A stretch of 21,220 nucleotides of DNA from a virus, in IMG/VR virus record IMGVR_UViG_3300031227_004262, positions 1-21,220 of that record. One strand, 5' to 3'. Positions 130-18,739 of the stretch are shown here, piece by piece. The notes beneath the pieces were generated by a model that had not been told where the DNA came from, ran no database searches, and saw only the letters and a program-made list of their open reading frames with translations. A program made the position numbers and the translations under genes. Position 1 is the first letter of the stretch. Every line of letters starts with the position of its first letter.

Positions 130-984
130 TTACGAGGTTGTAATCTTAGAGATTGCTTTTGTTCTTAAGTTCTCAACGTCAATTCTTTGAGTTAAAACTG
201 CACCTTCCATATCATAGGTAGGCATTGTTAAACTCTCCATACTGATGTCTCTTGCGATTGCAATTGCGTAAGCCTGGGTTCTGTCAAAGATGTAACCTGA
301 TGTTGCTACTGCGTTTGTTCCAGCGTTTGCACTGAATGTAGATACACTCAATCCAAAAATTGTTCCAACTCGTCCAGTACTCATAAATCCAGTGTTACCT
401 GCTTTGTCAGCTTCTACGAAAGTATCAATATTCATTAAATCTGAATACTGTTCTTCTCCTAAAAGATAGTCAGTAGGCCTGTAATCTTCTGCTCGTACAT
501 CATAGATAGATTCCACAATATTTGCAATTGTTACTGCATCGCCACCTGCTGTGGTTGCGTTTGCATCATCCAACTGTCCTAGAACTAAGTTAGTCTCATT
601 TTCAGCAAATCGTTTTCCTGCTGTTTTAATGTTTCTATTAAGTAATTCTACTTGTGAGTCTTCCATCATTTCTCTAGTGATTCTAATTGCTACACCATAT
701 TTAACTGGTGTAAAACTAACACTATCGAAACTTATATTATCTAAAGGTACTTCTGCTCCTTCACTAACTTCTCGAACATCCATTGTGTTAGGCGATTCTA
801 AGTCTAAGTACATTGTACTACCTTTAAACTCAGACGGTCCTATTACAAATGCTGCCATATCTCTAGGAATCAAATTCTTTTCTGCTTCTTCAATTACCTG
901 TGGTAAAATTAGTTGCGGAATAAGACTCTGTCCTGCTGTTCCATCGGCCCTTGTTATATACTCGTTTAATTTATTCATTGCCAT
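130..984 (-). CDS. Major capsid protein, HK97 fold
   Basis: A 284-residue HK97-fold major capsid protein that builds the icosahedral shell. The N-terminal arm is helical. Residues about 70-110 form the typical E-loop and spine segment (EGAEVPLDNISFDSVSFTPV, then RITREMMEDS). The C-terminal part carries the GTIFGLSVS and ARDISMESL patterns and ends in the usual VENLRTKA strand. No long N-terminal scaffold (delta) domain is present, which agrees with a separate scaffold encoded by the protease gene two genes upstream. It starts 1 nt after the stop of the decoration-like gene and has no SD, so it is probably translationally coupled. A second ATG (976-978) lies two codons in. It is the last complete gene of the head block here. 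Confidence 0.92.
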   Translation of the reverse strand: MAMNKLNEYITRADGTAGQSLIPQLILPQVIEEAEKNLIPRDMAAFVIGPSEFKGSTMYLDLESPNTMDVREVSEGAEVPLDNISFDSVSFTPVKYGVAIRITREMMEDSQVELLNRNIKTAGKRFAENETNLVLGQLDDANATTAGGDAVTIANIVESIYDVRAEDYRPTDYLLGEEQYSDLMNIDTFVEADKAGNTGFMSTGRVGTIFGLSVSTFSANAGTNAVATSGYIFDRTQAYAIAIARDISMESLTMPTYDMEGAVLTQRIDVENLRTKAISKITTS

Positions 985-985
985 T

Positions 986-1447
986 TTACAAGTTTAAATT
1001 AATAAGAGAATAAAGTGCTGTCCCAGATGCTGATGTCGTCAAAGCTCTTCCTACTGGTGTATCCAATAAAATACTTGTACCACTATTAGTTCCTCTGTGA
1101 TTCTGTACACATCCAGATTCGTTATGAGCTACCAAAGCACCACCAGATACAATTCCTCCTGCTGAACATAAATATGCTCCTCTTGTTGCTACAGTTACCC
1201 ACTCGTCTGAACCTGCGTTATTAATCGCAAGACCATTACAAAGAGCGTCATCAATAGCTCCAAATGCTGTCAAATCAGCTGATTGGAAAGACTCTGCTCC
1301 AGATACTACTAAAGCTGTACCAGAAAACGTTACCCATTGACCTCCAGAAACTACCTCTAATGCTTTTGCTGTAATAGTTCTAGGGACTCCACCATCCATG
1401 ATAGCTTGTGCGCCTAAAGGATTACTTAATACTAATGCTGTTGTCAT
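986..1447 (-). CDS. Capsid decoration-like protein (DUF2190-like)
   Basis: A 153-residue, Gly/Ala/Ser/Thr-rich, beta-strand-rich protein between the prohead protease and the capsid gene, the usual place for a head decoration or stabilising protein. The C-terminal stretch TPVGRALTTSASGTALYSLI resembles the conserved end of DUF2190 proteins. Its start overlaps the protease stop as TAATG, so it is translated in step with the protease and scaffold. The position is certain. The family match is from pattern recognition only, and a head-fibre base or other surface protein is an alternative. Confidence 0.7.
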   Translation of the reverse strand: MTTALVLSNPLGAQAIMDGGVPRTITAKALEVVSGGQWVTFSGTALVVSGAESFQSADLTAFGAIDDALCNGLAINNAGSDEWVTVATRGAYLCSAGGIVSGGALVAHNESGCVQNHRGTNSGTSILLDTPVGRALTTSASGTALYSLINLNL

Positions 1448-1809
1448 TATGCATAAACGTATGACTTTCTCTGAATTCCAATTGAACCATGTCCTTGTGT
1501 AAAGACATAATCTCCTTTTTCTTTAACTTCCTCTTCTTCCTCTTCGTCTTCAACTTCTTTAGTCTCTTCAGCCTCTTTTTCCTCAGGTTTTACTTCTTCT
1601 TTTGCCTCATCTTTTGCTTCTTCAGCCTCATCAGCATCAGCTTCCATAACAGCTAGTGCTTTTTTCTTAGCTGCGATTCTTAATTTTGCAATTTTTTCGT
1701 CGATAGCTTTTTCTTCGTCACTAACTTCTGGTTCTGTCTCAACTTTAGGTTCTTCTTTAGTCTCTTCTTCAGATTCCGTAGATTCAGTTTTCTTTTCTTC
1801 TTCTGTCAT
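1447..1809 (-). CDS. Nested scaffolding protein from internal start in the protease gene
   Basis: In frame inside the protease gene, ATG 1809-1807 is preceded at 6 nt by AAAGGAGG (core 1816-1821), one of the best ribosome-binding sites in the window. It would give a 120-residue protein beginning MTEEEKKTES. The protein is dominated by Glu and Lys with Ala-rich helical heptads near residues 35-75, and it ends with a short non-acidic tail (GIQRKSYVYA). This matches the known logic of lambda C/Nu3, where an internal start in the protease gene makes free scaffold in excess. The SD and composition are seen; the role is inferred. The capsid protein lacks its own scaffold domain, which fits. Confidence 0.75.
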   Translation of the reverse strand: MTEEEKKTESTESEEETKEEPKVETEPEVSDEEKAIDEKIAKLRIAAKKKALAVMEADADEAEEAKDEAKEEVKPEEKEAEETKEVEDEEEEEEVKEKGDYVFTQGHGSIGIQRKSYVYA

Positions 1810-2346
1810 ATTAAACCTCCTTTCATCTTTTGTTGAATTTTCAATTTTACTTGAATGTGATTTGTACGCACTATTAAGGGCCGTACTAAAGGTTGCTCCG
1901 CCATCTGCTGGAACTGCAACTAGACTTAATTCTTTGAAATCTATATTATGTGGGATAATGTCTCCATCGTCTGTTTCTTCGATGTCTTCCGGTTTAACAT
2001 GAGCACCAACACTCACTGTGCTTAGTAATTTATCTCTGATTAATTGTTTCATCTTGGTATCTTTGACTACTGCGCTAAAAGGAATGTTTCTTAATGATTC
2101 GTCCCAGTGTGCTACATTTACTCTACCAACTATTGAATCTACAGAATTATTATGATCCTTAAGTAATGGTACTCCAATTAAAGTGTTCGCTGCTTTGCTT
2201 AACTCTTCGCCAATAAACTTGTGCCCATTTGATGTAGTTGTTTCGTTAATAGCGATTCCGTTAATTGTGAAATCTCCATCTAATTCTGCACTAGACTGAA
2301 TTGGTACAAAGTATTCTAACATTATTCCTTCTTTTTTGTCTGCCAT
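1447..2346 (-). CDS. Prohead maturation protease with C-terminal scaffold domain
   Basis: A 299-residue protein. Residues 1 to about 160 form an HK97-type prohead protease: candidate catalytic His65 in LLKDHNNS, Ser112 in STVSVGAHV, and the family strand FKELSLVAVPADGGA at 137-151. Residues 180-299 are extremely acidic and Glu/Lys-rich with helical, coiled-coil character, as expected of a scaffolding domain. The protease cleaves scaffold and capsid proteins during head maturation. An internal ATG at codon 180 has its own strong SD, so a free scaffold is probably also made (separate entry). A TATA-like element lies at 2378-2390. ATG at 2346 is chosen; Met9 (2322) is possible. Only a weak AGGT precedes the start. 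Confidence 0.88.
   Translation of the reverse strand: MADKKEGIMLEYFVPIQSSAELDGDFTINGIAINETTTSNGHKFIGEELSKAANTLIGVPLLKDHNNSVDSIVGRVNVAHWDESLRNIPFSAVVKDTKMKQLIRDKLLSTVSVGAHVKPEDIEETDDGDIIPHNIDFKELSLVAVPADGGATFSTALNSAYKSHSSKIENSTKDERRFNMTEEEKKTESTESEEETKEEPKVETEPEVSDEEKAIDEKIAKLRIAAKKKALAVMEADADEAEEAKDEAKEEVKPEEKEAEETKEVEDEEEEEEVKEKGDYVFTQGHGSIGIQRKSYVYA
1816..1821 (-). promoter_or_regulatory. Internal Shine-Dalgarno for the nested scaffold
   Basis: The minus strand reads AAAGGAGGTTTAATATG. A full AGGAGG lies 6 nt before an in-frame ATG inside the protease gene. A chance run of this quality at correct spacing, exactly at the boundary between the protease domain and the acidic domain, is unlikely. 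Confidence 0.75.
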
Positions 2347-2377
2347 GTAAATAACCTATCTATTTAAGAAAAAAGTT

Positions 2378-2390
2378 GTTTATATTTATT
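2378..2390 (-). promoter_or_regulatory. Possible archaeal TATA box for the protease-capsid block
   Basis: In the 71-bp gap before the protease gene the minus strand reads AATAAATATAAAC, centred about 37 bp upstream of ATG 2346. A start site about 25 bp downstream would leave a leader of about 11 nt that includes a weak AGGT. A second AT-rich stretch (TTAATATATATTAA, about 2398-2411) could also serve. It is less clear than the boxes at 18947 and 9675. Confidence 0.4.
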
Positions 2391-3189: not shown

Positions 3190-3959
3190 TAGTCCACCAA
3201 CCCGACTATACTGCATCTGCACTGGCTGTGAGCTGGAGGAAGATTTAATCCTGTTTCGCCGTCAAGAGTCTCGAATACTTGACCGTCTAATCCTTCACAG
3301 ATAGGACAAGTTCTCTCATCTAGTGCAGTTAGCCATCTATAAGATTTAATTTTGTTTTCTGCGTATAAGTCTCTAAGTCCTTGGTTTGCTAATCTTACTG
3401 TCTCGGTTCGTGCTATGTTGATTGGTCTCTTGCTTGCAGAAAGTGTTACTTTTTTGGTACCATCTTCATTAAATTTCACTCTATCTTTGAGGCTGATCGA
3501 ACGGTCTATATCTTTTTCTATTTGAGTTATTGTTTTGTTCTTACGGAATCCGTCCTTAAGGATAATTCTTAATTTGTTTACATCTCGTTGTGGCAGCATT
3601 CCTTCTGCTACTTGAAATTCAGTAGTAGCTAATAGTTCTTCAAACTTATCCACCCTTAAATTTTGCAGTATCTTTACTAGATAATCTGAGTAATTAAAAC
3701 CGGCTAACTCTTTAACATTTACATATTGGGATACTTTCATGTTTCCTTTCTCTGCATCTGTTAAGGTTGGTTTACACTTGCTTACTAACTTAATCTTATT
3801 TTCTCTTATCTTTGTTTCAGCTGATTGCTTGGCTGTTTTCTTTGCGCCTGGAACAAAATTAAGACTGTCACAATACATACACCTATATAATGAATTATGT
3901 AATTCATTAAATTCTATTAATTCTCCAACCTGTCTACAATTACCACATTTTAATTTCAT
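3189..3959 (-). CDS. MuF-type minor head protein with N-terminal zinc ribbon
   Basis: A 256-residue protein from the chosen start. The last about 75 residues form a phage Mu F / SPP1 gp7 minor head domain: RTETVRLANQGLRDLYAENK, then W-L-T-A-L-D-E-R-T-C-P-I-C, and a closing LPPAHSQCRCSIVG. Such proteins bind the portal and act in DNA injection or head assembly. The N-terminus is unusual: Cys5, Cys8, Cys27 and Cys30 make a CxxC-CxxC ribbon like the Mu Com zinc finger. The frame stays open to ATG 3980, but ATG 3959 makes an ATGA overlap with the HNH stop and has GAGGT upstream, so it is preferred. Confidence 0.82.
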   Translation of the reverse strand: MKLKCGNCRQVGELIEFNELHNSLYRCMYCDSLNFVPGAKKTAKQSAETKIRENKIKLVSKCKPTLTDAEKGNMKVSQYVNVKELAGFNYSDYLVKILQNLRVDKFEELLATTEFQVAEGMLPQRDVNKLRIILKDGFRKNKTITQIEKDIDRSISLKDRVKFNEDGTKKVTLSASKRPINIARTETVRLANQGLRDLYAENKIKSYRWLTALDERTCPICEGLDGQVFETLDGETGLNLPPAHSQCRCSIVGLVD

Positions 3960-4426
3960 TTTGTAAAAAACCTCATCCATTTATCTCTATTGAAATTAGT
4001 CTTACTATGACATGACTGACATAATAAAATTAAATTATTTGGGCTACTATTCAACTTATCATAATCTATATGATGGACACATTTTCCTTTTTTAAAACAT
4101 ACTTGGCATAAATAGTCATCTCTTTCTTTAATAAATAGTTTCATTTGATTATTAAATTCTGGGCTATAGGGTAAAAAAGAGGTTCCACCTTTCCAACTTG
4201 TATTTAATTCTCCCTTTAATCCAACATTCTTTGGCATATATCCATTTTTACACTTCTTTTTTAATGCTTTAGATATTTTATTCTTGTGTTTTTGTGTTAA
4301 AATAACACCGGTAGAATCATAAATCTGCTCCTGTCCTTTCTTAAAACTAGTCTTATTTGGCTTACAAATACCCTTAGTTCCTTTATTCCACGCTGGTTTT
4401 GTTCTTATATAAACTCCTTTCGTCAT
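3956..4426 (-). CDS. Free-standing HNH homing-type endonuclease
   Basis: A 156-residue protein. The N-terminal half has repeated NUMOD-like DNA-binding motifs (RTKPAWNKGTKG about 8-19, KTSFKKGQ, HKNKISKALKKK about 47-58, LNTSWKGG about 74-81). The C-terminal HNH nuclease has Cys107/Cys110, His118-His119, Asn131 and Cys136-x2-Cys139-His140, so the active site looks intact. Homing endonucleases of this kind nick or cut allelic DNA and spread by repair. It is wedged between portal and minor head genes with ATGA overlaps on both sides, and an SD (AGGAGA) lies before its start. Its base content looks more AT-rich than its neighbours, which agrees with acquisition. Confidence 0.85.
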   Translation of the reverse strand: MTKGVYIRTKPAWNKGTKGICKPNKTSFKKGQEQIYDSTGVILTQKHKNKISKALKKKCKNGYMPKNVGLKGELNTSWKGGTSFLPYSPEFNNQMKLFIKERDDYLCQVCFKKGKCVHHIDYDKLNSSPNNLILLCQSCHSKTNFNRDKWMRFFTK

Positions 4427-5905: not shown

Positions 5906-7243
5906 CTAAGCTATATGCGGCGAGTAATAATCATTCAAATCGAATACGCACCGCATCATCATAGCATCTGAATAATCTGGGCTTCTCCCCAACTTCTCCT
6001 TTATTTCGTCCTTGCCAATCAATTCTATTTTCCCGTCTCTGTCTATATTCTTTTGAGAGATTTGTTCCAAGTCCGCTATAATACCCTCCTTGATTTCAAG
6101 TGGAACTTCAGGGCAAGCAATCTGTCCTAACTTAACTTTTTCTGCTAATTTAAAATAACATTGAGTCTTTAAGTTACGATAATTATGTATTTGTTTGGTA
6201 TAGTCTGTCTCTACTGGGCTTGAGTTATTAACAAAGCCTTTACAGTTTTCCATATAGTCTACTACTCCGCCGCCTACTCCATCCTCATCTATTACGATAT
6301 TGCTGTGTGGTACTTGATGTTCTCTGGCTAAATCATTTAGTAAATCAACTACTTCTTTGATTGAACTCTTTGGCAGACTGACTATTTTAACGATAGTCCA
6401 ATCTCTCCATACCATTGCTACTGTGTTATCGTTTCCAAACCTAGCCACATCACAGCTTATGAAGTTATCACAATGAGTCGGGATAAGCAAGTCATTAGTA
6501 AAGATGTCCAGTATTTTATCGTACTCGAATAACTTACTTGGATCATCAGAGTAATTCCAATTACCAAATAATAACCTTTCTTTTGAGTTCTTGTCTAGCT
6601 TGTGTAGATTCTCAATATAATACTTACTCATAAAAGGGTTGTCGCCTACTAGGGCTGGTATAAACATTCTATATGGTTCTAACTTATCTTCTGTCCATGG
6701 TCTCCAAAATGACTTATATGCCCAATTCTTTGCCGGATTGGATGCCATAAGTAGTTTAGGTACTAGGTTATATTCATCCAATTTGAACCTTAAACGACTC
6801 ATTACAATCATTTTAGCTTTCTCTGTTATCTCACTCACTTCATCCATGAAGGCACCTGTGAATTCTGTGCTACCTAGTGAATCGAACTCTGGGTCAGTAG
6901 GATATAAGAAAAGGTCCTTAAGATAAACTGAGCTTCCATTTGTGAAGTGGACTACCCCTTCCATTGCGTTGTATCTCCAATCTGTGTCTTTCTTTAGACC
7001 CCAATCCTTGAGTACCGCTAGAAACGACAGAAACGTGGACTCCTTAAGACTTTTTAATCTTGCCCTACCCATTAGCCACCTTGTTCCAGGATAAGCAAGA
7101 CAACTGAATACTAACCATATACAACCTAAATAAGATTTACCGCCTCCAGCCCCGCCACCGAAAAAGAGTTCGGTTGTTACTTTGTCTTGTAGAATAGTGA
7201 ACGCTTCGTCTTGCTTTAAACTAAGTTTGAGTCTTACTTCCAT
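5906..7243 (-). CDS. terL: Terminase large subunit
   Basis: A 445-residue packaging motor. The N-terminal ATPase has Walker A GGGAGGGKS at 29-37 and Walker B GAFMDE with Asp134-Glu135. The C-terminal RNase H-like nuclease shows Asp265 (SCDVARFGND), Asp319 and Asp321 (VIDEDGVGGG), and Asp423/Asp426 (PDYSDAMMM). It translocates DNA into proheads at the portal and cuts concatemers. Its start overlaps the preceding HTH/zinc-knuckle gene by 23 bp with only a weak SD. Both catalytic domains look intact. Confidence 0.95.
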   Translation of the reverse strand: MEVRLKLSLKQDEAFTILQDKVTTELFFGGGAGGGKSYLGCIWLVFSCLAYPGTRWLMGRARLKSLKESTFLSFLAVLKDWGLKKDTDWRYNAMEGVVHFTNGSSVYLKDLFLYPTDPEFDSLGSTEFTGAFMDEVSEITEKAKMIVMSRLRFKLDEYNLVPKLLMASNPAKNWAYKSFWRPWTEDKLEPYRMFIPALVGDNPFMSKYYIENLHKLDKNSKERLLFGNWNYSDDPSKLFEYDKILDIFTNDLLIPTHCDNFISCDVARFGNDNTVAMVWRDWTIVKIVSLPKSSIKEVVDLLNDLAREHQVPHSNIVIDEDGVGGGVVDYMENCKGFVNNSSPVETDYTKQIHNYRNLKTQCYFKLAEKVKLGQIACPEVPLEIKEGIIADLEQISQKNIDRDGKIELIGKDEIKEKLGRSPDYSDAMMMRCVFDLNDYYSPHIA

Positions 7244-7733
7244 GTTTATCTTTATAACGTTCCCGATTAGAACAAGATTTGCAATAAATTGACCTATTAT
7301 CTATAATTTTGTCACATTTTGAACATTTATTATTTAGATTTCTATGATAATTGAAATAATAATTTGGATTTTTTAAATTAAATGTAATTTTCCCTTTCTT
7401 TTTTATTATCTCCCATTTTTCTGGATTTTCTTTCTGCCATTTATAACATTTTTCCATATATTCTTTTTTAAACCCTGGTCTATTCTCCATCTTCCACCTA
7501 CGTCTATCACTTTTTCTTTTATTACTTTCTTTATATCTATCTAAAAGTGTATTTTTTGTTAAATTTGGTTCTCCATCCTTTCTTAAATAATTAGCAATTA
7601 ATCCCAATTTGGTTCTTCTTGACCATACGGCATTTTGTGCTACATCTAACTTTATAGAAATTTTTAAATCTCCCAATCCATAATTATAAAGTTCTAAAAA
7701 CTCCTCGTCTGTAAATTTTCTGTAAATCACCAT
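7221..7733 (-). CDS. HTH and zinc-knuckle protein, possible remnant of a mobile endonuclease
   Basis: A 170-residue, very Lys/Asn-rich basic protein. Residues about 8-46 look like a helix-turn-helix (DEEFLELYNYGLGDLKISIK, then NAVWSRRTKLGL). The middle is charged and helical. Cys137/Cys140 and Cys151/Cys154 form a zinc knuckle (KCSKCDK and YCKSCSNR) of the kind seen in phage homing-endonuclease DNA-binding parts. No HNH, GIY-YIG or LAGLIDADG nuclease motif is visible. It sits between the terminase subunits and overlaps the large terminase start by 23 bp. It may be a degraded or two-part mobile endonuclease, or a DNA-binding packaging or regulatory protein. Confidence 0.6.
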   Translation of the reverse strand: MVIYRKFTDEEFLELYNYGLGDLKISIKLDVAQNAVWSRRTKLGLIANYLRKDGEPNLTKNTLLDRYKESNKRKSDRRRWKMENRPGFKKEYMEKCYKWQKENPEKWEIIKKKGKITFNLKNPNYYFNYHRNLNNKCSKCDKIIDNRSIYCKSCSNRERYKDKHGSKTQT

Positions 7734-9660: not shown

Positions 9661-9687
9661 AAGTATTTAAATAAGTATTTAAATGTT
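9661..9687 (-). promoter_or_regulatory. Tandem TATA promoter of the 9654 operon
   Basis: The + strand holds two exact copies of AAGTATTTAAAT in tandem (9661-9672 and 9673-9684). The outer copy places TTTAAA 26.5 bp from the A of ATG 9654, the archaeal TATA position for a leaderless mRNA. The 13-mer GTATTTAAATGTT (9675-9687) is identical to 18947-18959 and at the same distance from its ATG. The box overlaps the stop codon of the upstream glycosyltransferase. The inner copy, 14 bp from the start, may be an operator or regulator site. Confidence 0.7.
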
Positions 9688-10734
9688 GGTATTAACCAGC
9701 TTATGTATTTGCCTCGCCGTATTTCCCCAAGTTAAGTGCTCGATTGACTTAGCGCAATTTTTAGAGATTTTCTCCACTAGGTTTTGATTATCGTAACACA
9801 TCCTTAGCGTCTTCTTGAGGTCCTCCATATTTGGAGTTAACCAACTGATCCCCTCGTATTCTAGCTCGTGTTTTACCTCAGTCAGTTCTCCGTCTATTAG
9901 CCATCCGTTATTGTTCTCTTTTATGAAGTCTGTTTGCCCGCCGAATGTTGTGCTTATCACCGGCTTGCCGCAGGCCAAAGCTTCTAGGCATGGAATATTG
10001 AATGCCTCTGCTCTTGTTGGACTTACAAAGACATCACAACTATTGTATAATTCATTGAGTTGCTTTGTTGTTAGTTCCCCTGTGTGAAATACTACATCTG
10101 TCCTTCCTTCTAGTTCTGGGAATAATTTTAAGAAGTCTGGTATTCCGTATGCTGGATTAATCTTTAAAACTAACCTTGTATTATCTTCTAATTTGAATAC
10201 TTCTAGATATGCTTTGATTAAGTATTGGAGTCCTCCACGGTCTTCTAGGTTTCTTAATCCTTTGTTTGCTAGAAAAGTAAATGGTTTAACTTCCCTTTTT
10301 TGTTCTATTGGATAATAATCTTCTTTGTTGTATCCGTGTGGTATCATTATTAATTTTTTTGGGTGTACTCCTGAGCTTACTGCTGCCTGGAAAGTGTGCT
10401 CGCTTGGACAAATTATCTTCTCAATCCTAGGATTTAAGCATTCTTCTGCTATCCACTTAGGTATTCTGTCGCCTTCCCATACGAGATAAACCATTTGATA
10501 TTTTGCACTTAAATTAGCTCGCCAGTGAAGTGGATGTGTTATAATCAAATTAATATCAAAACCTTGTTCTCGTTTAACCATTTCTAACTCTTGGTCATTT
10601 ATCTGAGTTTCAAAACCTTGAGGGATTGCACTAATAAGCTTACACTCTGTTAATTTGTTTAATTCATTTACTAGTCCCCTTGTATGCGAAGAGTAACCCG
10701 AGGTTCCAAGTATGTTTCCAATTACATTAATCAT
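9679..10734 (-). CDS. GT4-family glycosyltransferase
   Basis: A 351-residue GT-B-fold retaining glycosyltransferase (group 1, GT4-like). The C-terminal donor domain shows the E-x7-E motif at Glu243/Glu251 (EAFNIPCLEALACGKPVI), preceded by LYNSCDVFVSPT. IPHGYN and FTFLANKGLRNLEDRGG are typical of the domain junction. It transfers a sugar from a nucleotide donor; the substrate cannot be read. It is the last gene of the glycan cassette, starts by an ATGA overlap with the GT2 gene upstream, and its stop lies in the next promoter. Confidence 0.87.
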   Translation of the reverse strand: MINVIGNILGTSGYSSHTRGLVNELNKLTECKLISAIPQGFETQINDQELEMVKREQGFDINLIITHPLHWRANLSAKYQMVYLVWEGDRIPKWIAEECLNPRIEKIICPSEHTFQAAVSSGVHPKKLIMIPHGYNKEDYYPIEQKREVKPFTFLANKGLRNLEDRGGLQYLIKAYLEVFKLEDNTRLVLKINPAYGIPDFLKLFPELEGRTDVVFHTGELTTKQLNELYNSCDVFVSPTRAEAFNIPCLEALACGKPVISTTFGGQTDFIKENNNGWLIDGELTEVKHELEYEGISWLTPNMEDLKKTLRMCYDNQNLVEKISKNCAKSIEHLTWGNTARQIHKLVNTNI

Positions 10735-11570
10735 TTGAACTGCTCCTTGTATTTTGACACGAAATCACCATTTTCTTCTGATAGTTTCTTTGTAAAATCA
10801 TTAAGTAATCCATGATTGAAGTCTAGGTTATTTTGATACTCTGGGGTTCTTTCTCCACCTGAATTTGTCATAAGATGATAAGCAATAGCTCCAGTATGTA
10901 CTCCTATTTTAAATCCTGCAGTAATTGCTTTAAAGCTGAAGAACTCTTCCTCACGAAATGAACAGAATCCTATATTACTCTCATATTTTACTTTCTCATG
11001 TACTGTCTTTCTGATAAGTGCCATTGACCTGAAATGTGGGCTTGGGATTATTTCTTTCTCAATATAAAGCCATCCGCAATCATCCCCGAATTTATCTATT
11101 GTTCCGTCTTTTTTTAATTTAATGTCTGCTATGAAAGGTTTGACAAACTTCGTTTCTCTTCTTGGGGTTGGTTGGAACGCTACTGGGACTAATCCACTTG
11201 CTATGTCATATCCTGCGTCTAAAGTCTCTACTAATTTTTCTATGTAATCTGGTTCAAGTATATTATCGTCATCTAACCTTAAAATTGCTTCACCTTCTCC
11301 TACCTTCATTATTTTATCTACCAACATTTGTCTTAACTTTGTTACACCGTATCTTGTTTGTTCTTCACGCATAATGAATACCCTGTGGTTTTCTTGTTTA
11401 AGTAGGTTAATTAGACATCTAATAAAATGATGTGATATAAGTGGTGCGCCCGACCTATCATCATAAATAAAAATATCCCAGTCTTGGTGGCTCTGCGTTC
11501 TTAGACTTTGAAGTAATAATCCTACTTCAGAAGGTCTATCTTTCGTACAACACATTATATCAATCTTCAT
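10731..11570 (-). CDS. GT2-family glycosyltransferase
   Basis: A 279-residue GT-A-fold protein. The start MKIDIMCCTKDRPSEVGLLL is the nucleotide-binding strand and helix, IYDD lies at about 35-38, and the metal-binding Asp cluster LRLDDDN has Asp100-Asp102. A later FREEEFFSFKAITAG resembles the ED catalytic motif of GT2 enzymes. It adds a sugar to a glycan acceptor in the cytoplasm. It has ATGA overlaps with the genes on both sides, so it is part of one coupled operon. Donor and acceptor unknown. Confidence 0.85.
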   Translation of the reverse strand: MKIDIMCCTKDRPSEVGLLLQSLRTQSHQDWDIFIYDDRSGAPLISHHFIRCLINLLKQENHRVFIMREEQTRYGVTKLRQMLVDKIMKVGEGEAILRLDDDNILEPDYIEKLVETLDAGYDIASGLVPVAFQPTPRRETKFVKPFIADIKLKKDGTIDKFGDDCGWLYIEKEIIPSPHFRSMALIRKTVHEKVKYESNIGFCSFREEEFFSFKAITAGFKIGVHTGAIAYHLMTNSGGERTPEYQNNLDFNHGLLNDFTKKLSEENGDFVSKYKEQFK

Positions 11571-12865
11571 TTAATCACCATCTTTTGAATTTTGTCTCTT
11601 TTAGCGTGGATGTACTTTTCTGGCATAGAATCTGTACGAGTAAATGATGCACTTTGCGCTTTTAAACCTTTATAAAATGAGTCTTCCCTTGAAAAGTCTG
11701 GCTTATTGAAATAGAGCCCATTGAATTCCCAGTCATACCCTTTGAATTTATCTGATCCAACTGCCTCATCGTACATCTTGCTTCCAGGATATGGCGTAAC
11801 TAGTCCTATGTCAAAATCATCTGGTCTGGCTTTTTTTAACCAGTCTACTGTCTCTTCTACATCTTGTTTTGTTTCTCCTGGTAATCCCATCATAGTAAAT
11901 GCTTCATAATGGATTCCAGCTTCTTGGATTAATTTTCTTGCAGCATAGTTCTGTTCAACTGTCACTCCCTTTCCAAGAGCTTTTAACATTCTATCTGAAC
12001 CGCTTTCTACACCTGTACACAACTTAACGAATCCTGCTTTTTTGAGTAACCCGGCTTGTTCTGGATGTTTTGAAAGAATATCGCTTCTGATAAATCCTCT
12101 GTGCTGATATGGGCGCTTGCTTAACCTATCGCATAATTCTTCTAATCTACCGGGATTAACATTTATCTCATCATCGTACCACATAAAGCTTTCATACCCG
12201 TATTGTTCGTTTAGTCTGTCCATTTCTTCGACAACTCTTTCTGGGGAATGTTGTCTGATTTTGTTATACATCTCAATATCACGTCCGCAGCAAAAGTTAC
12301 AAGTAAACGGACAACCTCTCTGAGTTTGAACACTTGTGGTATCTTTGCCTAATAAATTATAATGATAAGTATCTCTGTCTATGAACTTTTCGTCTGGCAT
12401 TTTTACATCATCCAGTTTCTTTACTAATTCACCTTTTTGCCATCCTGGCTTAAATATATTTTCTGTTGACTCTCCTTCCCCCTCGAATACTGTATCATAT
12501 CCATCTAATGTCTTAATGTTTGGATCTTCTATGCCTTTTCTTTTTAATGAGCTCATTGCGCTTGCGTGTGGACCACCTATTACTGTTTTCACATTAGGAT
12601 TGGACTCTTTTAATGTATTGAATAATCTGTGGGTATGTTTAAATTGTGGTGAGGTACCTCCAAATAAATAATAATCAAAACTATTGGAAAGTCTTCTCAT
12701 TGTATTTTCTGCTGACTCTATGTCAGTTCCTGCAAAGTCTAAAAATGATACATCATTCTCTTTGTCTAAGGCGGTTGCTACTCTGACCATTCCAACGTTT
12801 GGGAATACTCTTTCATTTATTAGAAATGGGCTTGGAGGATTTATTAAAACTACTTTATTCCCCAT
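11567..12865 (-). CDS. B12-binding-type radical SAM enzyme
   Basis: A 432-residue protein. Residues 1-110 form a Rossmann-like cobalamin-binding-type domain (KVVLINPPSP, LFGGTSPQFKHT, KTVIGGPHASA). The radical SAM core begins with Cys185-x3-Cys189-x2-Cys192 (RGCPFTCNFC) and continues with WYDDEINVNP, GVESGSDRMLKALGKG and MMGLPGETKQD. No DxHxxG cobalamin ligand is seen, as in many class B members. Relatives are C- or P-methyltransferases, methylthiotransferases and ring-forming enzymes. In this cassette a sugar or lipid tailoring step is plausible. It overlaps the upstream GT2 by 16 bp and the downstream one as ATGA. Confidence 0.87.
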   Translation of the reverse strand: MGNKVVLINPPSPFLINERVFPNVGMVRVATALDKENDVSFLDFAGTDIESAENTMRRLSNSFDYYLFGGTSPQFKHTHRLFNTLKESNPNVKTVIGGPHASAMSSLKRKGIEDPNIKTLDGYDTVFEGEGESTENIFKPGWQKGELVKKLDDVKMPDEKFIDRDTYHYNLLGKDTTSVQTQRGCPFTCNFCCGRDIEMYNKIRQHSPERVVEEMDRLNEQYGYESFMWYDDEINVNPGRLEELCDRLSKRPYQHRGFIRSDILSKHPEQAGLLKKAGFVKLCTGVESGSDRMLKALGKGVTVEQNYAARKLIQEAGIHYEAFTMMGLPGETKQDVEETVDWLKKARPDDFDIGLVTPYPGSKMYDEAVGSDKFKGYDWEFNGLYFNKPDFSREDSFYKGLKAQSASFTRTDSMPEKYIHAKRDKIQKMVIK

Positions 12866-13506
12866 TTTTTCTTAAATAATTTACCCATTTTTTTTAGATG
12901 ATCTGATTTGTGTGTTAAATTCCTATCTGTTAATTGATGATGTTGAACCCAAAAATTACACATGACTCCTTTTAATCCTGCATTATCTATTCTATATGAA
13001 TAATCTATGTCATCTCCCCCGCTAAACTGTTCATCAAACAATCCAATTTTTTCAATAGTTCTTTTCGGAATATAAGTATTCCACGTACCTGCCCATTTTT
13101 GGCCTTCTAAAAATTCTGGTCCAGAAATACCTCCCCCATTTATTCCTATCACTATCCCAATATCTTTTTTTTGTGCATTATCATGCATATTCATCAACCA
13201 ATCTTTTCCATATAATTTAAAATGTATTACATCTGCCTGAGTCAAATAAATATCCATATTACCTGCTTTTTTTATTCCAAAGTTAATAGCATTGACTAAT
13301 CCTTTTCTGGGAATTTGATATAATTCTATGTTTTCATGTCTATCTAAAAGGTTTAAACAATATTCCCAAGTTCCATCATCACTATATCCATCTATAATAA
13401 TTAACTTAAATGGGAAACTGGTAGATTCATACAAGTGTTTAATCATTTCTTTTAGGTGTGGCATTGCGTCCAATACTGGTAAAATAATTGCTACTTTCGG
13501 ATTCAT
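12850..13506 (-). CDS. GT2-family glycosyltransferase (short)
   Basis: A 218-residue GT-A-fold protein. VAIILPVLDAMPHLKEMIKH at 5-24 is the family start, IIIDGYSDDGT at 37-46 binds the nucleotide, LTQADVI (88-94) takes the DxD position in altered form, and FSGGDDIDYSYR (161-172) is the acceptor/base motif. It is more Lys/Ile/Asn-rich than its neighbours, suggesting separate acquisition. It starts with an ATGA overlap on a 41-residue ORF and has 16 bp overlap with the next gene. Probably an active transferase, though the incomplete DxD leaves doubt about the metal site. Confidence 0.8.
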   Translation of the reverse strand: MNPKVAIILPVLDAMPHLKEMIKHLYESTSFPFKLIIIDGYSDDGTWEYCLNLLDRHENIELYQIPRKGLVNAINFGIKKAGNMDIYLTQADVIHFKLYGKDWLMNMHDNAQKKDIGIVIGINGGGISGPEFLEGQKWAGTWNTYIPKRTIEKIGLFDEQFSGGDDIDYSYRIDNAGLKGVMCNFWVQHHQLTDRNLTHKSDHLKKMGKLFKKKWGIK

Positions 13507-13628
13507 TCTTCAACATACACCTCATAATAGTGCCAGACAAATCTTGGATTTCCTGGCTCGACAACTGTGCATAGATATTTCCCAGAAGGTATATCTTGTC
13601 CGGTTCCATATTTATATACTCTTCTCAT
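13503..13628 (-). CDS. Small 41-residue protein coupled to the radical SAM gene
   Basis: A 41-codon ORF fills the gap between the SPASM radical SAM gene and the GT2 gene, with ATGA overlaps at both ends (13625-13628 and 13503-13506). That is strong evidence for translation. The product begins MRRVYKYGTGQDIPSGKYLC and continues with a Trp/Tyr/Val-rich, acidic end (FVWHYYEVYVEE), like a single small beta-domain. It could be a small accessory protein, or less likely a peptide substrate for the adjacent radical SAM enzyme. Confidence 0.62.
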   Translation of the reverse strand: MRRVYKYGTGQDIPSGKYLCTVVEPGNPRFVWHYYEVYVEE

Positions 13629-14725
13629 ATTAAATTCATCTCCATCTTATCATCCATAAATATATGCTCAAAAAACTCATTTTGAGAACAAAGTGTGCAT
13701 CTATCACATTTCTTCAATCTTATTTTATCTACTTTGTTCCAATGGTCTTTAGACCCCCAATACTTTATAAATTTCTTTGGATTAGGATAATGGTCAGATA
13801 AGTAAGCCCATGGGTTTCCTCTAGTGTCCGTACACATATAGACTTTCCCGTCTGCGCACCAAGTAGTAGTTAACATACTTGCCCTACACTTTTTGAAGTT
13901 GTGTTTTTTACTCATATCTGAATTGAACTTATGTTGTACTCCCATCACTTTGAAATCGTCTCGCTCAAACTTTCTTCCTCGTTCTACTTGATTCCAAATC
14001 ATCTTCCCATGCTCTTTGAATAACTTTACTTGAGTTGGGCTGATAGCTGGCCTTATTTGAATAGTATTACATCCTATTTCGCTGGCTAGTTTAATTGCTT
14101 GATAGATTGATTTATAGTTATAATCGTCTATTAAGAACTTGAATCCAATATTTACTTTGCTATCAGATGATTTTTTTATATCGGCTATTCGTTTTAAATT
14201 ATTTATCACTACATCAAACTGACCTTCTTTTACACCCTTAACTTTTGCATAATCTTTTTTGTTTCCGGCATCTATACTAAATCCTACGAACTTACAAGTC
14301 TCACAAATAGTATGCCACCAACTTTCATTATTGCATAGAAACCCATTAGTTACAAATCCTATGTCTAATCCTTGTTTTTTACACTCTAATAACATATCAC
14401 GACACACTGGATGACAAGTAGGGTCTCCACCACCGCCTATGCAAGTCGCTTTAACACCCCATTTCTTCCATAGTTTTGGTAAGCTTAATATATATTTGTC
14501 TGGAAGCTTCTCGTTATTTCTAAACTTCTCTCCAGTCTTATCGGTACGTTTACGGTTTGCAAACATACAAAACCTACAATTATAATTACAAATATTAGTC
14601 ATATCAAAGTTTATATTGATTGGTGGTAATACCTTTCTATTCAAAATTGCCCAGTAGTGATCACTATGCACGAGATTCTTCCAGCTATTAAAAGGATTAT
14701 ATTTTTGGGTCCACTCCTTTATCAT
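13625..14725 (-). CDS. Radical SAM enzyme with SPASM-like C-terminal domain
   Basis: A 366-residue protein. The radical SAM cluster motif is Cys46-x3-Cys50-x2-Cys53 (NICNYNCRFC), followed by the SAM-binding IGGGGDPTCHP at 97-106 and FVTNG. The C-terminus carries extra Cys for auxiliary iron-sulfur clusters: Cys280, Cys290 and Cys298 (WCADGKVYMC) and Cys340, Cys343 and Cys346 (KCDRCTLC). SPASM/twitch enzymes modify peptides or oxidise and rearrange sugars (for example BtrN-type chemistry). Among glycosyltransferases a sugar substrate is more likely. Both ends have ATGA overlaps. Confidence 0.87.
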   Translation of the reverse strand: MIKEWTQKYNPFNSWKNLVHSDHYWAILNRKVLPPININFDMTNICNYNCRFCMFANRKRTDKTGEKFRNNEKLPDKYILSLPKLWKKWGVKATCIGGGGDPTCHPVCRDMLLECKKQGLDIGFVTNGFLCNNESWWHTICETCKFVGFSIDAGNKKDYAKVKGVKEGQFDVVINNLKRIADIKKSSDSKVNIGFKFLIDDYNYKSIYQAIKLASEIGCNTIQIRPAISPTQVKLFKEHGKMIWNQVERGRKFERDDFKVMGVQHKFNSDMSKKHNFKKCRASMLTTTWCADGKVYMCTDTRGNPWAYLSDHYPNPKKFIKYWGSKDHWNKVDKIRLKKCDRCTLCSQNEFFEHIFMDDKMEMNLI

Positions 14726-15231
14726 TGGTCTGCTCCGTTTTTAATTACTTTCAGAACAAATCTTATTGCTCCACTATTTTCTACAATCTCTTCAGACAAA
14801 CTAATAAACATCGCTCCGAATGTTTCTTGTTCATAATTCATAACTGCGTTTATTTCTCCACCGTTTGGAGCCCACATGTCAAAATATTGTGGCCTGATAA
14901 ATCTTTTATGGTTTGGATAAATGGACATTAAATGAGCATGGTTTGGTGCTATTATTTCTACTATTCCGCCGTGTTTACTTACTCTCCATATTTCATACAT
15001 AAAAAAGAATACATCATCTACATGTTCAATTACATGACTTGCCCTAACATAATCTGCTGAGTTTGTATCAAAAGGTAATCCCTTATCTAAATTTCTTACT
15101 TCATCTGGATTGCACTCCTTATCTATATCTACATTTACCCAACCCAACTTAGCATCTCCTGGACGGTTACCACTACCTAAATTTAATAATCTTGGTAATT
15201 TTTTAATTGACTTTTCTTTCTTCGCTACCAT
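14722..15231 (-). CDS. SAM-dependent methyltransferase (type 11-like)
   Basis: A 169-residue class I methyltransferase. Motif I LNLGSGN is at 16-22, acidic motif II VNVDID at 32-37, LPFDTNSADYV at 52-62 and ASHVIEHVDDV at 64-74, then W-R-V-S-K-H-G-G. The type and length fit small-molecule or sugar O/N-methyltransferases found in polysaccharide clusters. Its start overlaps the 83-residue gene by 29 bp without a clear SD, and its stop overlaps the radical SAM gene as ATGA. Acceptor unknown. Confidence 0.83.
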   Translation of the reverse strand: MVAKKEKSIKKLPRLLNLGSGNRPGDAKLGWVNVDIDKECNPDEVRNLDKGLPFDTNSADYVRASHVIEHVDDVFFFMYEIWRVSKHGGIVEIIAPNHAHLMSIYPNHKRFIRPQYFDMWAPNGGEINAVMNYEQETFGAMFISLSEEIVENSGAIRFVLKVIKNGADQ

Positions 15232-15454
15232 GTTTTACTTTTATGTCTTGGAATCCGTCTCCAAAGATTTCTTTTAGATTATTCTTTAATGCTACTCTTT
15301 CTCTGTTAATATTTCTAATCTCTAAGGCTCTACGTCCTACTTCTTCAAGTCCTAGTTCATCTTCTTTGCCTTGTCGAATGTCTGCTTCGAGTATACTAAT
15401 CTTGATGTTTGCTATACATAGTCTGTCGAATAAATCTGCTATTGCTTCTTTCAT
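15203..15454 (-). CDS. Helical 83-residue protein of the glycan cassette
   Basis: An 83-residue, mostly helical protein (IADLFDRLCIANIKISILEA; RRALEIRNINRERVALKNNL). The pattern of a helix with L-x-D-R-L-x-I-x-N-I-K followed by a second helix with I-R-x-I-N-x-x-R-x-A-L-K resembles small helical proteins I associate with sugar clusters, but I cannot name the family with confidence. It has a strong SD (AAAGGAGGT, 6 nt) plus an ATGA overlap with the fusion gene, so it may be made at a higher level than its neighbours. Confidence 0.65.
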   Translation of the reverse strand: MKEAIADLFDRLCIANIKISILEADIRQGKEDELGLEEVGRRALEIRNINRERVALKNNLKEIFGDGFQDIKVKHGSEERKVN

Positions 15455-16680
15455 TTTTTACCTCCTTTGAATATTAATAATTGTTCTTTAAACTGGAAAT
15501 GGTCTGGGGTCTTAACTAACTCTAGTCCCTTATCTGTAAATTTCTTGATCCACCATTCTCTATCTTCTTTGATTATATGAGTTCGATCAGCATCACAATT
15601 TGGGGTATTTTTAAATGGGACACTTATTAGAATATCTTTATTAGAATATCTAATCAGAGTATCTATTGCACTATTTAATTTACTATATTCCAGGTGTTCG
15701 AGTAAATCATAAGCCACAGATAAACCATAAAGTCCTTGTGAATGATAATCCTCTACATTCCCTGGGAATATCAAATCTAACGAATTTCTAACTGCATAGG
15801 TGCTTTTTTCTATTCCGACACAGCCTACCCCAATGCTATTCAAAGCCTTTACCCTTTGCCCGAATCCACAGCCAAACAAGATGGCATTCTTACATTTAAA
15901 GAAGTCTTTCCAGTCTATTGCATCCTGATAATGTTTTGCTTCCATATTCATTCTTGGTGCAAAATATAACTCATCGAAATCTATCTTAAAATTATCCAAT
16001 ATTACTTTTGGTATTTCAGTTACATTGAATTGTTTTGTTGGATACGTTCCAAATAAGTGTGCGTTCTTCCAATCGGTAAGAAATTTCTTGGTATGGATAG
16101 TTGAATTATCTAAATGCTCATTTCCACGTCTAACTATGTAATGCATATACTCAACCGGCAAGTGACCCAAATGCCAAATAGTCGTGCAAATTGTTCCGCT
16201 TTGTTTTCCGCCAGTTAAAATAGGATGACTATCTTCTGGGTAACTATCTGCTTCGCTTATTTTGAATAGTCTATTTGGTACAAAATGGTCTTTTCTTGTG
16301 TTGTCCAAATGACCTAAATCTCCAATGAAATGTTCCATCTTTACTGAATATAACCCTGGTTCTGCCGTCTGGATGAACTCCTTTACTTTGTTTATGTCTT
16401 CACATACCTCATCTTCGTCTAAGACTAAACACCAATCATCTGGATGGTTTGCCTTTAAATGTTCAAGGTATTTATTTCTAGACTTTCCATTAGTGTTCTT
16501 GTCTGATTCATCCCATCCATTATTATGATGCTCTATGCCAGATATGGCTTTTGGCAGTGTCAACCCGATGGGTATGCTTGTGAAATAAACTACTTTATCT
16601 GCTTCCTTAATAGAATCTACTGCCATCTGTATAAAATTCTCATTACCTGGACCCATTATTACTACGATTAGTTTATCCAT
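15451..16680 (-). CDS. GT2-like glycosyltransferase fused to a methyltransferase
   Basis: A 409-residue two-domain protein. Residues 1 to about 220 are GT2-like with an Asp/Glu metal motif LVLDEDE at 85-91 and a His-rich acceptor part. Residues about 245-409 form a class I SAM methyltransferase: AILFGCGFGQ at 266-275, VGIEKS for the acidic motif, and VAYDLLEHLE at 322-331. One polypeptide may add and then methylate a sugar. It overlaps the epimerase by 13 bp and the next gene as ATGA. Both domains look complete. Confidence 0.82.
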   Translation of the reverse strand: MDKLIVVIMGPGNENFIQMAVDSIKEADKVVYFTSIPIGLTLPKAISGIEHHNNGWDESDKNTNGKSRNKYLEHLKANHPDDWCLVLDEDEVCEDINKVKEFIQTAEPGLYSVKMEHFIGDLGHLDNTRKDHFVPNRLFKISEADSYPEDSHPILTGGKQSGTICTTIWHLGHLPVEYMHYIVRRGNEHLDNSTIHTKKFLTDWKNAHLFGTYPTKQFNVTEIPKVILDNFKIDFDELYFAPRMNMEAKHYQDAIDWKDFFKCKNAILFGCGFGQRVKALNSIGVGCVGIEKSTYAVRNSLDLIFPGNVEDYHSQGLYGLSVAYDLLEHLEYSKLNSAIDTLIRYSNKDILISVPFKNTPNCDADRTHIIKEDREWWIKKFTDKGLELVKTPDHFQFKEQLLIFKGGKK

Positions 16681-17522
16681 TTTTGTCCCTCTGTTTTATA
16701 AAATTCTATCAACCTATCTAATCCTTCTTCTATTTTTATTTTAGGATCGTATCCGAATTTTCTTAACTTATCTATATTAATTTTTACCTGTTGGGGCTGT
16801 GCTATCTCTGGCGCACTGAACTCTCTATCAATTGCTTTTCCTAACTTTTCTTCAATTATGCAAGCAACATCAACTAACTTCCTACAATCATCTCCACAAA
16901 TATCGTATGAATCATTTTTTGCTTTATCCCAGTTGTCTAGTAAGCACGTTATTCCTTCTACGAAATCATCTACATGAGTAAAATCTAAGGTCTTGTTCTC
17001 GTCTCCGTATATCTCAAGCGGGTCTCCTGTCATTGCGTTAATTACCCACTTTGTTATTAGTCTTGTAGTTAGATCGTGATGTTCTCCGTATACTGTGCTA
17101 GGCCTAATAATCAAATATTCTATTCCGTAGCATTGTTTGTATGCCTCGCAAAGTGCTTCTCCGTATAATTTGCTTGCAGTATATGGATTCACTTCTTTAC
17201 TCAATACTCTACTTGAACTCATATAAACGAATTTCTTGATGTTATTCTTTCTACAGAACTCTAGGCATTGGTATGTTCCTTGACAGTTATTTATATGTGG
17301 CAATTCTGGGTTAAGTGTTCCCTCATTTATTTTACAATGCGCCGCAAGGTGAAAGAATATGTCTGTGTGTTGAGTTTTCTGGGTTAGTCTGATTGAATTA
17401 AGACTTAATACATTACTTCCTAGCCTCATGTCTATTTCCATTATACACTTGTTTGACTTGTCTAATCTTTCTTTTAACTTGCTGCCAATTAGACCAGCGC
17501 TACCTGTAATAATAAAGTTCAT
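16668..17522 (-). CDS. NAD-dependent nucleotide-sugar epimerase/dehydratase
   Basis: An extended short-chain dehydrogenase of 284 residues. The Rossmann motif TGSAGLIG (6-13) starts the protein, the Ser triplet (102-104, YMSSSRV) and Tyr114-x3-Lys118 (YTASK) form the active site, and RPSTVYGEHHD is the family substrate-loop pattern. It probably makes the activated sugar for the transferases around it (UDP-glucose 4-epimerase or dTDP-glucose 4,6-dehydratase class; sequence alone does not decide). The frame extends to 17540, but ATG 17522 gives an ATGA overlap and puts the Rossmann strand at the N-terminus. Confidence 0.87.
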   Translation of the reverse strand: MNFIITGSAGLIGSKLKERLDKSNKCIMEIDMRLGSNVLSLNSIRLTQKTQHTDIFFHLAAHCKINEGTLNPELPHINNCQGTYQCLEFCRKNNIKKFVYMSSSRVLSKEVNPYTASKLYGEALCEAYKQCYGIEYLIIRPSTVYGEHHDLTTRLITKWVINAMTGDPLEIYGDENKTLDFTHVDDFVEGITCLLDNWDKAKNDSYDICGDDCRKLVDVACIIEEKLGKAIDREFSAPEIAQPQQVKINIDKLRKFGYDPKIKIEEGLDRLIEFYKTEGQKWIN

Positions 17523-18739
17523 GCAAGTACTGCATCCCATTGCTTCATCACAATAGGATTATCATATTTAGTTAAAACTGCTTTACGGCCGTTCTCGCCC
17601 ATTTCTTTTCGCATAGCTGGATTTTTGTATAGCATTTCTACTGCTTCTGCGCAGTTTTCTATGTCACAGGAGCCTCTTTCTACTTCCCAACTTCCTGTCA
17701 TTGTTCCGTTGAATGATTTTTTATCATAATCTTTTGAGTTGAGTGCAAATAAGTCTAATGTCTCTACACCAGATAGCTTGATGCCTAGGCCTGCTTTATT
17801 ATTTATTACTAATTCAGGTGTAGTTGTATAATCTGTTGCGACGACAGGTATCTGGCAGCTCATTGCCTCAATGATAGGTATTCCGAAGCCTTCTCCAGAT
17901 GTGGTAAGCAAAAAGCAATCCATCACATTGTAGACTTCATTCATTTTACTTTGAGGGAATCCATTGACCGCATTCATCCCAGAATAAACTACTCGGTTTT
18001 CTAGGTTATGCTTTTTTACTAACTCGCTTATTTTCCATGCCTGTTGAGCTGCGTCGTTTGGATCTAAATGTAAAAAGAGCACTGCATTTGGTATCTTGTC
18101 TGCAATTAGCCTCATTGACTTAATTGTTCTATCTAAGTTCTTTCTTGGCTGATTACGTGCAACTACTCCAATAACAAACTTGTCAGTTAGTCCCCATTTC
18201 TTTTTCGATTCAAGTTTTTCAGACTCCTCTAGTGGGTAAAATTGCTTTGAGTCTACACAATGAGGAATATGTTTTACGTCTAGGTTGTAATAATCTTTGA
18301 CTTGCTTTTGTCCGAATTCTGCCATAGCAACTGGTTGGTCTATTTTTCTTAAAATAGCTTCGCACCCTTTGGGCATTCCACCGCCACCATCACTCGGAAA
18401 GTAGAAAAATGTCTTGGCCGGACTTGTATCAACATTCAAAAACCACGGAAATAACATAAAAGTATCCAGTAATATGATAAATCTATCTGCCTTAAATTTT
18501 TTAAGTCTATGGCTCATTGACCTATTGAAATATTGGTCTGTTTGGTCGTGTCCATAAATAGGGTAATCAAATTCTTCTCCGCCTTTTAATGTAAGTTTTT
18601 CTATGTCTGAACCCATATAACCATTTGCCATATACATTATTTCATGCCCTTGAGACTTTAAATGTCTTACAATCTGAACCATTTGATTTCTATACCCCGT
18701 ACAAATTGTAGGAGAATCACTTAACAATGCAATCTTCAT
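17519..18739 (-). CDS. GT4-family glycosyltransferase
   Basis: A 406-residue GT-B-fold glycosyltransferase. The start MKIALLSDSPTICTGYRNQM has the acceptor-domain Gly-rich loop. VIGVVARNQPRKNLDRTI at 189-206 opens the donor domain. Glu283 and Glu291 form E-x7-E (EGFGIPIIEAMSCQIPVV). It is the first enzyme gene of the cassette. It overlaps the 69-residue leader gene by 23 bp and the epimerase as ATGA. Together with the GT4 at the other end of the operon it brackets the pathway. Sugar specificity unknown. Confidence 0.87.
   Translation of the reverse strand: MKIALLSDSPTICTGYRNQMVQIVRHLKSQGHEIMYMANGYMGSDIEKLTLKGGEEFDYPIYGHDQTDQYFNRSMSHRLKKFKADRFIILLDTFMLFPWFLNVDTSPAKTFFYFPSDGGGGMPKGCEAILRKIDQPVAMAEFGQKQVKDYYNLDVKHIPHCVDSKQFYPLEESEKLESKKKWGLTDKFVIGVVARNQPRKNLDRTIKSMRLIADKIPNAVLFLHLDPNDAAQQAWKISELVKKHNLENRVVYSGMNAVNGFPQSKMNEVYNVMDCFLLTTSGEGFGIPIIEAMSCQIPVVATDYTTTPELVINNKAGLGIKLSGVETLDLFALNSKDYDKKSFNGTMTGSWEVERGSCDIENCAEAVEMLYKNPAMRKEMGENGRKAVLTKYDNPIVMKQWDAVLA

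Follow-up and report, generated by a model that had tools for sequence, protein, structure and literature searches.

In phage lambda, the protease gene C contains, in its 3' part and in the same frame, the gene for the Nu3 scaffold, which has its own translation start. The lambda gene order is C/Nu3-D-E, and the overlap of C and Nu3 was reportedly described in a 1980 paper. In herpesviruses, the short scaffold product comes from its own transcript. In HSV-1, a separately encoded scaffold product binds the capsid protein via its C-terminus, with the last 25 residues of preVP22a as the binding part. Phage P2 carries protease and scaffold in one gene, and Pseudomonas phage MD8 carries a protease-scaffold-capsid fusion (PMC8508860). 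Little is known of how archaeal tailed viruses assemble their heads, and the literature searched, most of it outside subscription journals, yielded no account of an archaeal virus with a nested scaffold.

The window analysed here is the whole of virus record IMGVR_UViG_3300031227_004262 (21,220 bases), in which the head genes are clustered on the minus strand. Upstream in this cluster are a possible small terminase subunit (weak match, E=0.041), the large terminase (PF04466, E=2.2e-13), the portal (phrog_9232), and a Mu F-like protein followed by small genes between the portal and the protease-scaffold gene. Last in the cluster come, in this order, the genes for the protease-scaffold protein, the decoration protein and the major capsid protein. 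HNH-endonuclease-like ORFs, read from the sequence, adjoin the portal and terminase genes at 3956-4426 and 7221-7733. Positions 9679-18739 hold a cassette of glycosyltransferase-like genes, a sugar epimerase, a methyltransferase-like gene and two radical SAM genes, one of which had a B12-binding match slightly under the cut-off; this cassette perhaps serves modification of a surface glycan. The features of the locus are as follows.

2357-2390, minus strand: AT-rich promoter-like stretch (TAAATATAAA and CTTAAATAG) upstream of the protease start, from the sequence
1447-2346, minus strand, stop codon included: full-length head maturation protease with acidic C-terminal putative scaffold domain, 299 aa, from the ORF, PHROG matches and fold
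1867-2346, minus strand: protease domain, approximately residues 1-160, from alignments, an AlphaFold2 model and a T4 gp21 fold match
1816-1821, minus strand: putative internal Shine-Dalgarno (SD) sequence AGGAGG, duplex energy -11.2
1807-1809, minus strand: putative internal ATG start codon, Met180, in frame with the 299-aa ORF
1447-1809, minus strand: putative nested scaffold gene (inner ORF), 120 aa, 13.7 kDa, pI 4.35
1450-1521, minus strand: conserved C-terminal module of the putative scaffold, about 24 residues, predicted beta hairpin, from the consensus of a 46-sequence alignment, the tails and the model
986-1447, minus strand: decoration or capsid stabilisation protein, from model matches and an hhalign match to HFTV1 gp18
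130-984, minus strand: major capsid protein, HK97 fold, 284 aa, from PF25209 (E=1.6e-12), PF05065 and phrog_10

The long gene matched PHROG families 4523 (E=1.5e-12) and 617 (E=1.4e-11), both head/protease families, and had no match to the Pfam prohead protease families at E<=0.1. His65 and Ser112 did not vary across two alignments, one of 22 and one of 46 sequences. An AlphaFold2 model built on 46 relatives was confident over approximately residues 5-165, with pLDDT blocks mostly above 80 in the protease domain; beyond this domain came a linker helix and then a low-confidence acidic part. The top solved-structure match of the protease model was the T4 capsid assembly protease gp21 (5jbl_B, Foldseek E=1.5e-6), and structural comparison with T4 gp21 gave Z 12.0 over 135 residues at 3.2 A. 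Herpesvirus proteases matched more weakly, at Z 5-8, values that mean little by themselves. As modelled, the N-terminal part has the fold of the T4 gp21 and herpesvirus assembly proteases. No ClpP-like (lambda C-type) fold was present in the structure match lists of the protease model, an absence that proves nothing.

The AGGAGG that the initial annotation had placed 6 nt ahead of an in-frame ATG was confirmed at 1821-1816 and 1809-1807, with a spacing of 6 nt. The whole site, AGGAGGTTTAATATG (1807-1821, minus strand), occurs once in the 21,220-base record, and its AGG AGG encodes Arg-Arg in the protease frame. The start had also been placed exactly at the boundary between the protease and acidic domains. 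The acidic stretch does begin at this residue, Met180; the end of the protease domain (~160) lies about 20 residues before it. RNA structure around the internal site was weaker than elsewhere in the ORF in all 66 distinct relatives, but the difference from shuffles was small (z only +0.40, positive in 50 of 66), and RNA openness was given little weight because it is mostly a matter of composition.

Relatives were collected from 29 virus loci found in protein and capsid searches and from the best 80 of 169 relatives in a protease profile search. A protease ORF was present at 104 loci, 71 of them distinct across the relevant stretch. Two of these end within the protease domain (L067, L078) and three are remote (L106, L031, L003); with these five left out, 66 distinct relatives were counted, window included, with protease identities to the query from 96% down to approximately 52%. 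A wide search was made over 160 codons for an SD core consisting of A, G or T followed by GG[AG]GG, with the start of L026 set by hand. It found the core 4-18 nt ahead of an in-frame ATG where the acidic part starts in 66 of 66 relatives, which share kinship and hence represent fewer than 66 independent trials. Loss of the SD or ATG in close homologues, which the initial annotation had named as evidence against a nested gene, was thus not seen. The spacing was 4-13 nt in 63 relatives; L026 (18 nt), L070 (16 nt) and L072 (16 nt) had spacings that are long for an SD. The codon phase of the SD core was 0 in 35 relatives (as in AGG AGG or AGG GGG), 1 in 14 (as in AAG GAG G) and 2 in 17 (as in AAA GGA GG). 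On the protease tree the phase switched 15 times or more, and 45 different peptides are encoded across the SD, indicating that the nucleotides and not the residues are conserved. In L077, L084, L090, L097 and L105, 77-156 codons separate the protease from the acidic part, and the SD and ATG are still found at the acidic start. These five relatives, and L085 by its likeness to L084, carry a domain inserted between protease and scaffold, which is CPxCGG zinc-finger-like and/or of an RFNQTKFKS type that looks helical.

A fixed rule was also applied, in which an in-frame ATG had to lie no more than 70 codons after the protease domain and be preceded by an SD with a duplex energy of -9 kcal/mol or lower to AUCACCUCCU. 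By this rule 58 of the 66 relatives, window included, had the internal start. The other eight were the three with long spacing and five with the inserted domain (L077, L084, L085, L090, L105); L097 passed via an ATG in its zinc finger, and its own acidic start, with SD, lies further downstream. Applied to controls, the rule picked out far fewer sites: 1 of the 124 ATGs that fall in the protease domain, 2 of 123 linker ATGs in the wrong frame, 7 of 94 located deeper in the acidic part and, in other ORFs with 220 codons or more, 12 of 1182 internal ATGs. Only 12.5 of 66 were expected when the six codons ahead of the ATG were redrawn synonymously. By these counts, the SD and ATG at the acidic start are not a product of chance. 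Among distant Thermoproteota homologues that have no acidic tail, a strong SD-ATG was present in 1 of 14.

The same figures bear on a P2 gpO-like alternative, in which the fusion alone is translated, the scaffold is freed by self-cleavage between the domains and the SD-like motif is incidental. P2 sets a precedent with its single gene, and Haloferax tailed virus 1 (HFTV1) carries an annotated P2 gpO-like scaffolding/protease, gp17, in which no internal ATG has an SD energy below -6.7. However, an incidental motif would not persist in all 66 relatives and in three codon phases, nor would it shift along with the acidic domain, and the synonymous redraws fell far below the observed number; we consider this alternative improbable. 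A second alternative is recoding, in which the purine-rich motif, acting as an SD-like stimulator or through AGG-AGG slippage, would yield a shortened protease through a +1 frameshift. The site in the window is AGG AGG TTT AAT ATG A, and the +1 frame does reach TGA immediately (ATGA). The tandem AGG is not kept, however, the SD being in another codon phase in 31 of 66 relatives, nor is ATGA, which is ATGG in L024, L026 and L027; what persists is the SD-ATG pair. Frameshifting at AGG AGG was rejected on this lack of codon conservation and has hardly any likelihood left. Internal initiation of the scaffold is very well supported by this comparative evidence. All 66 distinct relatives, each with a complete domain, keep protease and scaffold fused in one frame, which suggests that both products matter.

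Outside the counted set, the remote relative L003 (1067-2293) has, at its acidic tail, an ATG preceded by a very strong internal SD (-15.2). Prohead proteases matching its protein were found in 618 phage records, mostly enterobacterial, and the nested layout may reach bacterial phages.

The 120-aa product of the inner start would contain 44 D+E residues and no Cys or Trp. A helix is predicted in the acidic part at residues 211-238 (full-protein numbering), and the strands of the predicted C-terminal hairpin are at 280-285 and 288-293. Because of the analogy with HSV-1 preVP22a, this conserved module is probably the capsid-binding part and is treated as a candidate for that function. No significant pairwise alignment was obtained between the acidic parts of the window and of L028, indicating rapid divergence of this region. 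Of 64 complete acidic tails, 45 contain a D-x-D-E motif, often ADADE, which may mark a cleavage site or serve in binding.

The internal start might instead be used for a short protein that is not a scaffold, such as a regulator or inhibitor of the protease. The acidic part has no Pfam family, and its tail is of low complexity and was modelled with low AlphaFold confidence, which leaves some room for such a role. A scaffold fits the location between the protease and the decoration and capsid genes, the size, the charge, the predicted helix and the conserved C-terminal module, and it also fits a capsid protein that has no scaffold domain of its own; a regulatory role is therefore unlikely. We infer that the 120-aa protein is a scaffold from its position, its acidity, the predicted helix and the capsid gene order.

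The capsid protein itself is informative on this point. PF05065 aligned capsid residues 20-282 to profile positions 3-279 of 280, and approximately 19 residues precede the fold. The match begins at residue 20 and leaves no room for a delta or scaffold domain, indicating that the scaffold comes from another protein. The protein encoded at 986-1447 was considered as a rival scaffold after a weak match to PHROG 673 ("head scaffolding", E=0.0025), and was dismissed on the beta-rich decoration fold of its model. That model matched the base of the phi29 head fibre gp8.5, HFTV1 chains in 8qsy and the TW1 stabilising protein, and its profile aligned weakly with HFTV1 gp18, an annotated capsid stabilisation protein (hhalign E=6.8e-5, probability 64%). 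The ATG of the decoration gene shares one base with the scaffold stop codon (TAATG).

The two starts of the protease-scaffold gene differed strongly. When the first ATG of the ORF was taken as the protease's own start, its mean SD energy was -1.9 kcal/mol, vs -10.4 kcal/mol at the internal ATG, and the internal SD was the stronger in every one of the 66 relatives. Upstream boxes were counted in 65 relatives, since L015 ends short of the 60-nt upstream window. TTTAWA was present at -45 to -18 of the protease ATG in 39 of 65, vs 15.0 (maximum 28) in shuffles, most often between -31 and -28. TTTAWA was the sole motif tried at the internal start, where it was found in 5 of 65 vs 2.8 in shuffles. 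This lack of a promoter signal suggests that initiation takes place on the mRNA and is translational rather than transcriptional. The initial annotation had described the promoters as archaeal-looking. Among the relatives, TATA-like boxes are enriched upstream of the protease; the window itself carries variants of the TTTAWA box and stands outside the 39 strict matches. A TATATATA-type element was also present at about -95 to -40 of the protease start in 21 of 66 relatives, besides the box near -30, and is perhaps an operator or a second promoter. An archaeal box approximately 30 nt from the ATG fits leaderless transcripts. Within the window, some genes have no SD and others have a strong one. 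Leaderless mRNAs together with SD-led distal cistrons are described for archaea (PMC7531240).

Halogranum tailed virus 1, a haloarchaeal virus, was the sole reference-phage match, and a near-DNA search against reference phages gave no match. The sole relative in a scan of GTDB contigs lay in a Bathyarchaeota genome (38% identity). Distant homologues were present in 38 of 398 genomes of the Bathyarchaeota's phylum, in a search confined to archaeal genomes. The archaeal replication markers MCM (PF00493) and PCNA (PF00705) were each found in 0 of 16 related virus records, which is not evidence on the host. The haloarchaeal virus match, the Bathyarchaeota relative and the TATA-like boxes, all indirect, make an archaeal host likely.

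L106/L107, L109 and L108 are Bathyarchaeota proviruses whose protease ORF continues without a frame change into the capsid protein (PF25209, E=1.6e-6 in L106). The SD energy at the ATG of the capsid part was -11.5 in L106/L107 and L109 and -11.8 in L108; the Thermoproteota protease-capsid fusions L121, L124 and L126 had no strong SD there (-4.6, -3.3 and -5.4). A nested capsid gene in the Bathyarchaeota proviruses, with the capsid protein itself as the inner product, is therefore possible on the basis of two distinct sequences. To our knowledge, a capsid protein made as a nested product would be without precedent.

Taken together, it is very probable from the conserved reading frame and start signals that this gene yields two proteins sharing a C-terminus, the inner one being a scaffold started at the internal SD and ATG. 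Initiation at 2346 would give the long protease-scaffold fusion, and initiation at the internal site (1821-1807) would give the 120-aa scaffold alone. As we infer the production, stoichiometry and cleavage of the short protein, it would be in excess and would direct assembly of the capsid protein that has no scaffold domain, a few long copies would bring the protease into the prohead via their scaffold tail, and the protease would cut the scaffold out ahead of DNA packaging. It is a more tentative idea, which we would not yet favor, that one mRNA uses two archaeal start modes to set the ratios of head proteins, with a leaderless-type fusion and an SD-led scaffold, and that the same trick was moved to the capsid protein in the Bathyarchaeota proviruses. 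The initial annotation expected a standard gene caller to report the long product and miss the scaffold. With the inner start present in 66 of 66 relatives, standard annotation would overlook this probable head-assembly protein across the virus group, leaving the group's scaffold absent from gene calls. A practical rule for annotators is to look for an SD and ATG where an acidic tail begins. The nested scaffold start would be a fixed trait of a virus group whose protease has a T4/herpesvirus fold, and the locus offers a testable case of archaea possibly using leaderless and SD starts on one message.

Of the described systems, HFTV1 is similar in being an archaeal tailed virus with the order scaffolding/protease, capsid stabilisation and capsid protein, and in its related decoration protein, as judged from the model and the weak profile alignment. 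Its gp17 differs in having no detectable sequence relation to the window protease and in lacking an internal ATG with a comparable SD. The prohead protease gp11 of Halogranum tailed virus 1 is a homologue (35.8% over residues 26-143), has a long C-terminal extension and is followed by one small gene and then a capsid gene; however, it is 888 aa long, and its several internal SD-ATG sites are ambiguous, with none that clearly marks the beginning of a scaffold. The likeness to lambda C/Nu3 put forward in the initial annotation holds for the in-frame nesting, the common C-terminus, the inner start with its own SD, and the decoration and capsid genes that follow. For the protease, the likeness to the lambda C family (S49, with a ClpP-like fold) is less clear, its model resembling T4 gp21. 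In addition, the protease start in this group mostly has no SD and often has a TATA-like box, and the host is probably archaeal. Because the protease model matches both T4 gp21 and herpesvirus proteases, herpesvirus UL26/UL26.5 (UL80/UL80.5) is as close a parallel, with an assemblin-type protease fold (the weaker match) and a C-terminal scaffold domain; unlike in herpesviruses, the inner start in the window's group has a strong SD and no TTTAWA promoter signal. A lambda-like translational version and a herpesvirus gene layout would thus meet on one protease type. Arrangements of the lambda C/Nu3 and UL26/UL26.5 kind are known; what is new here is the virus group, the combination of this protease type with an SD-led inner start, and a possible division between leaderless and SD-led initiation.
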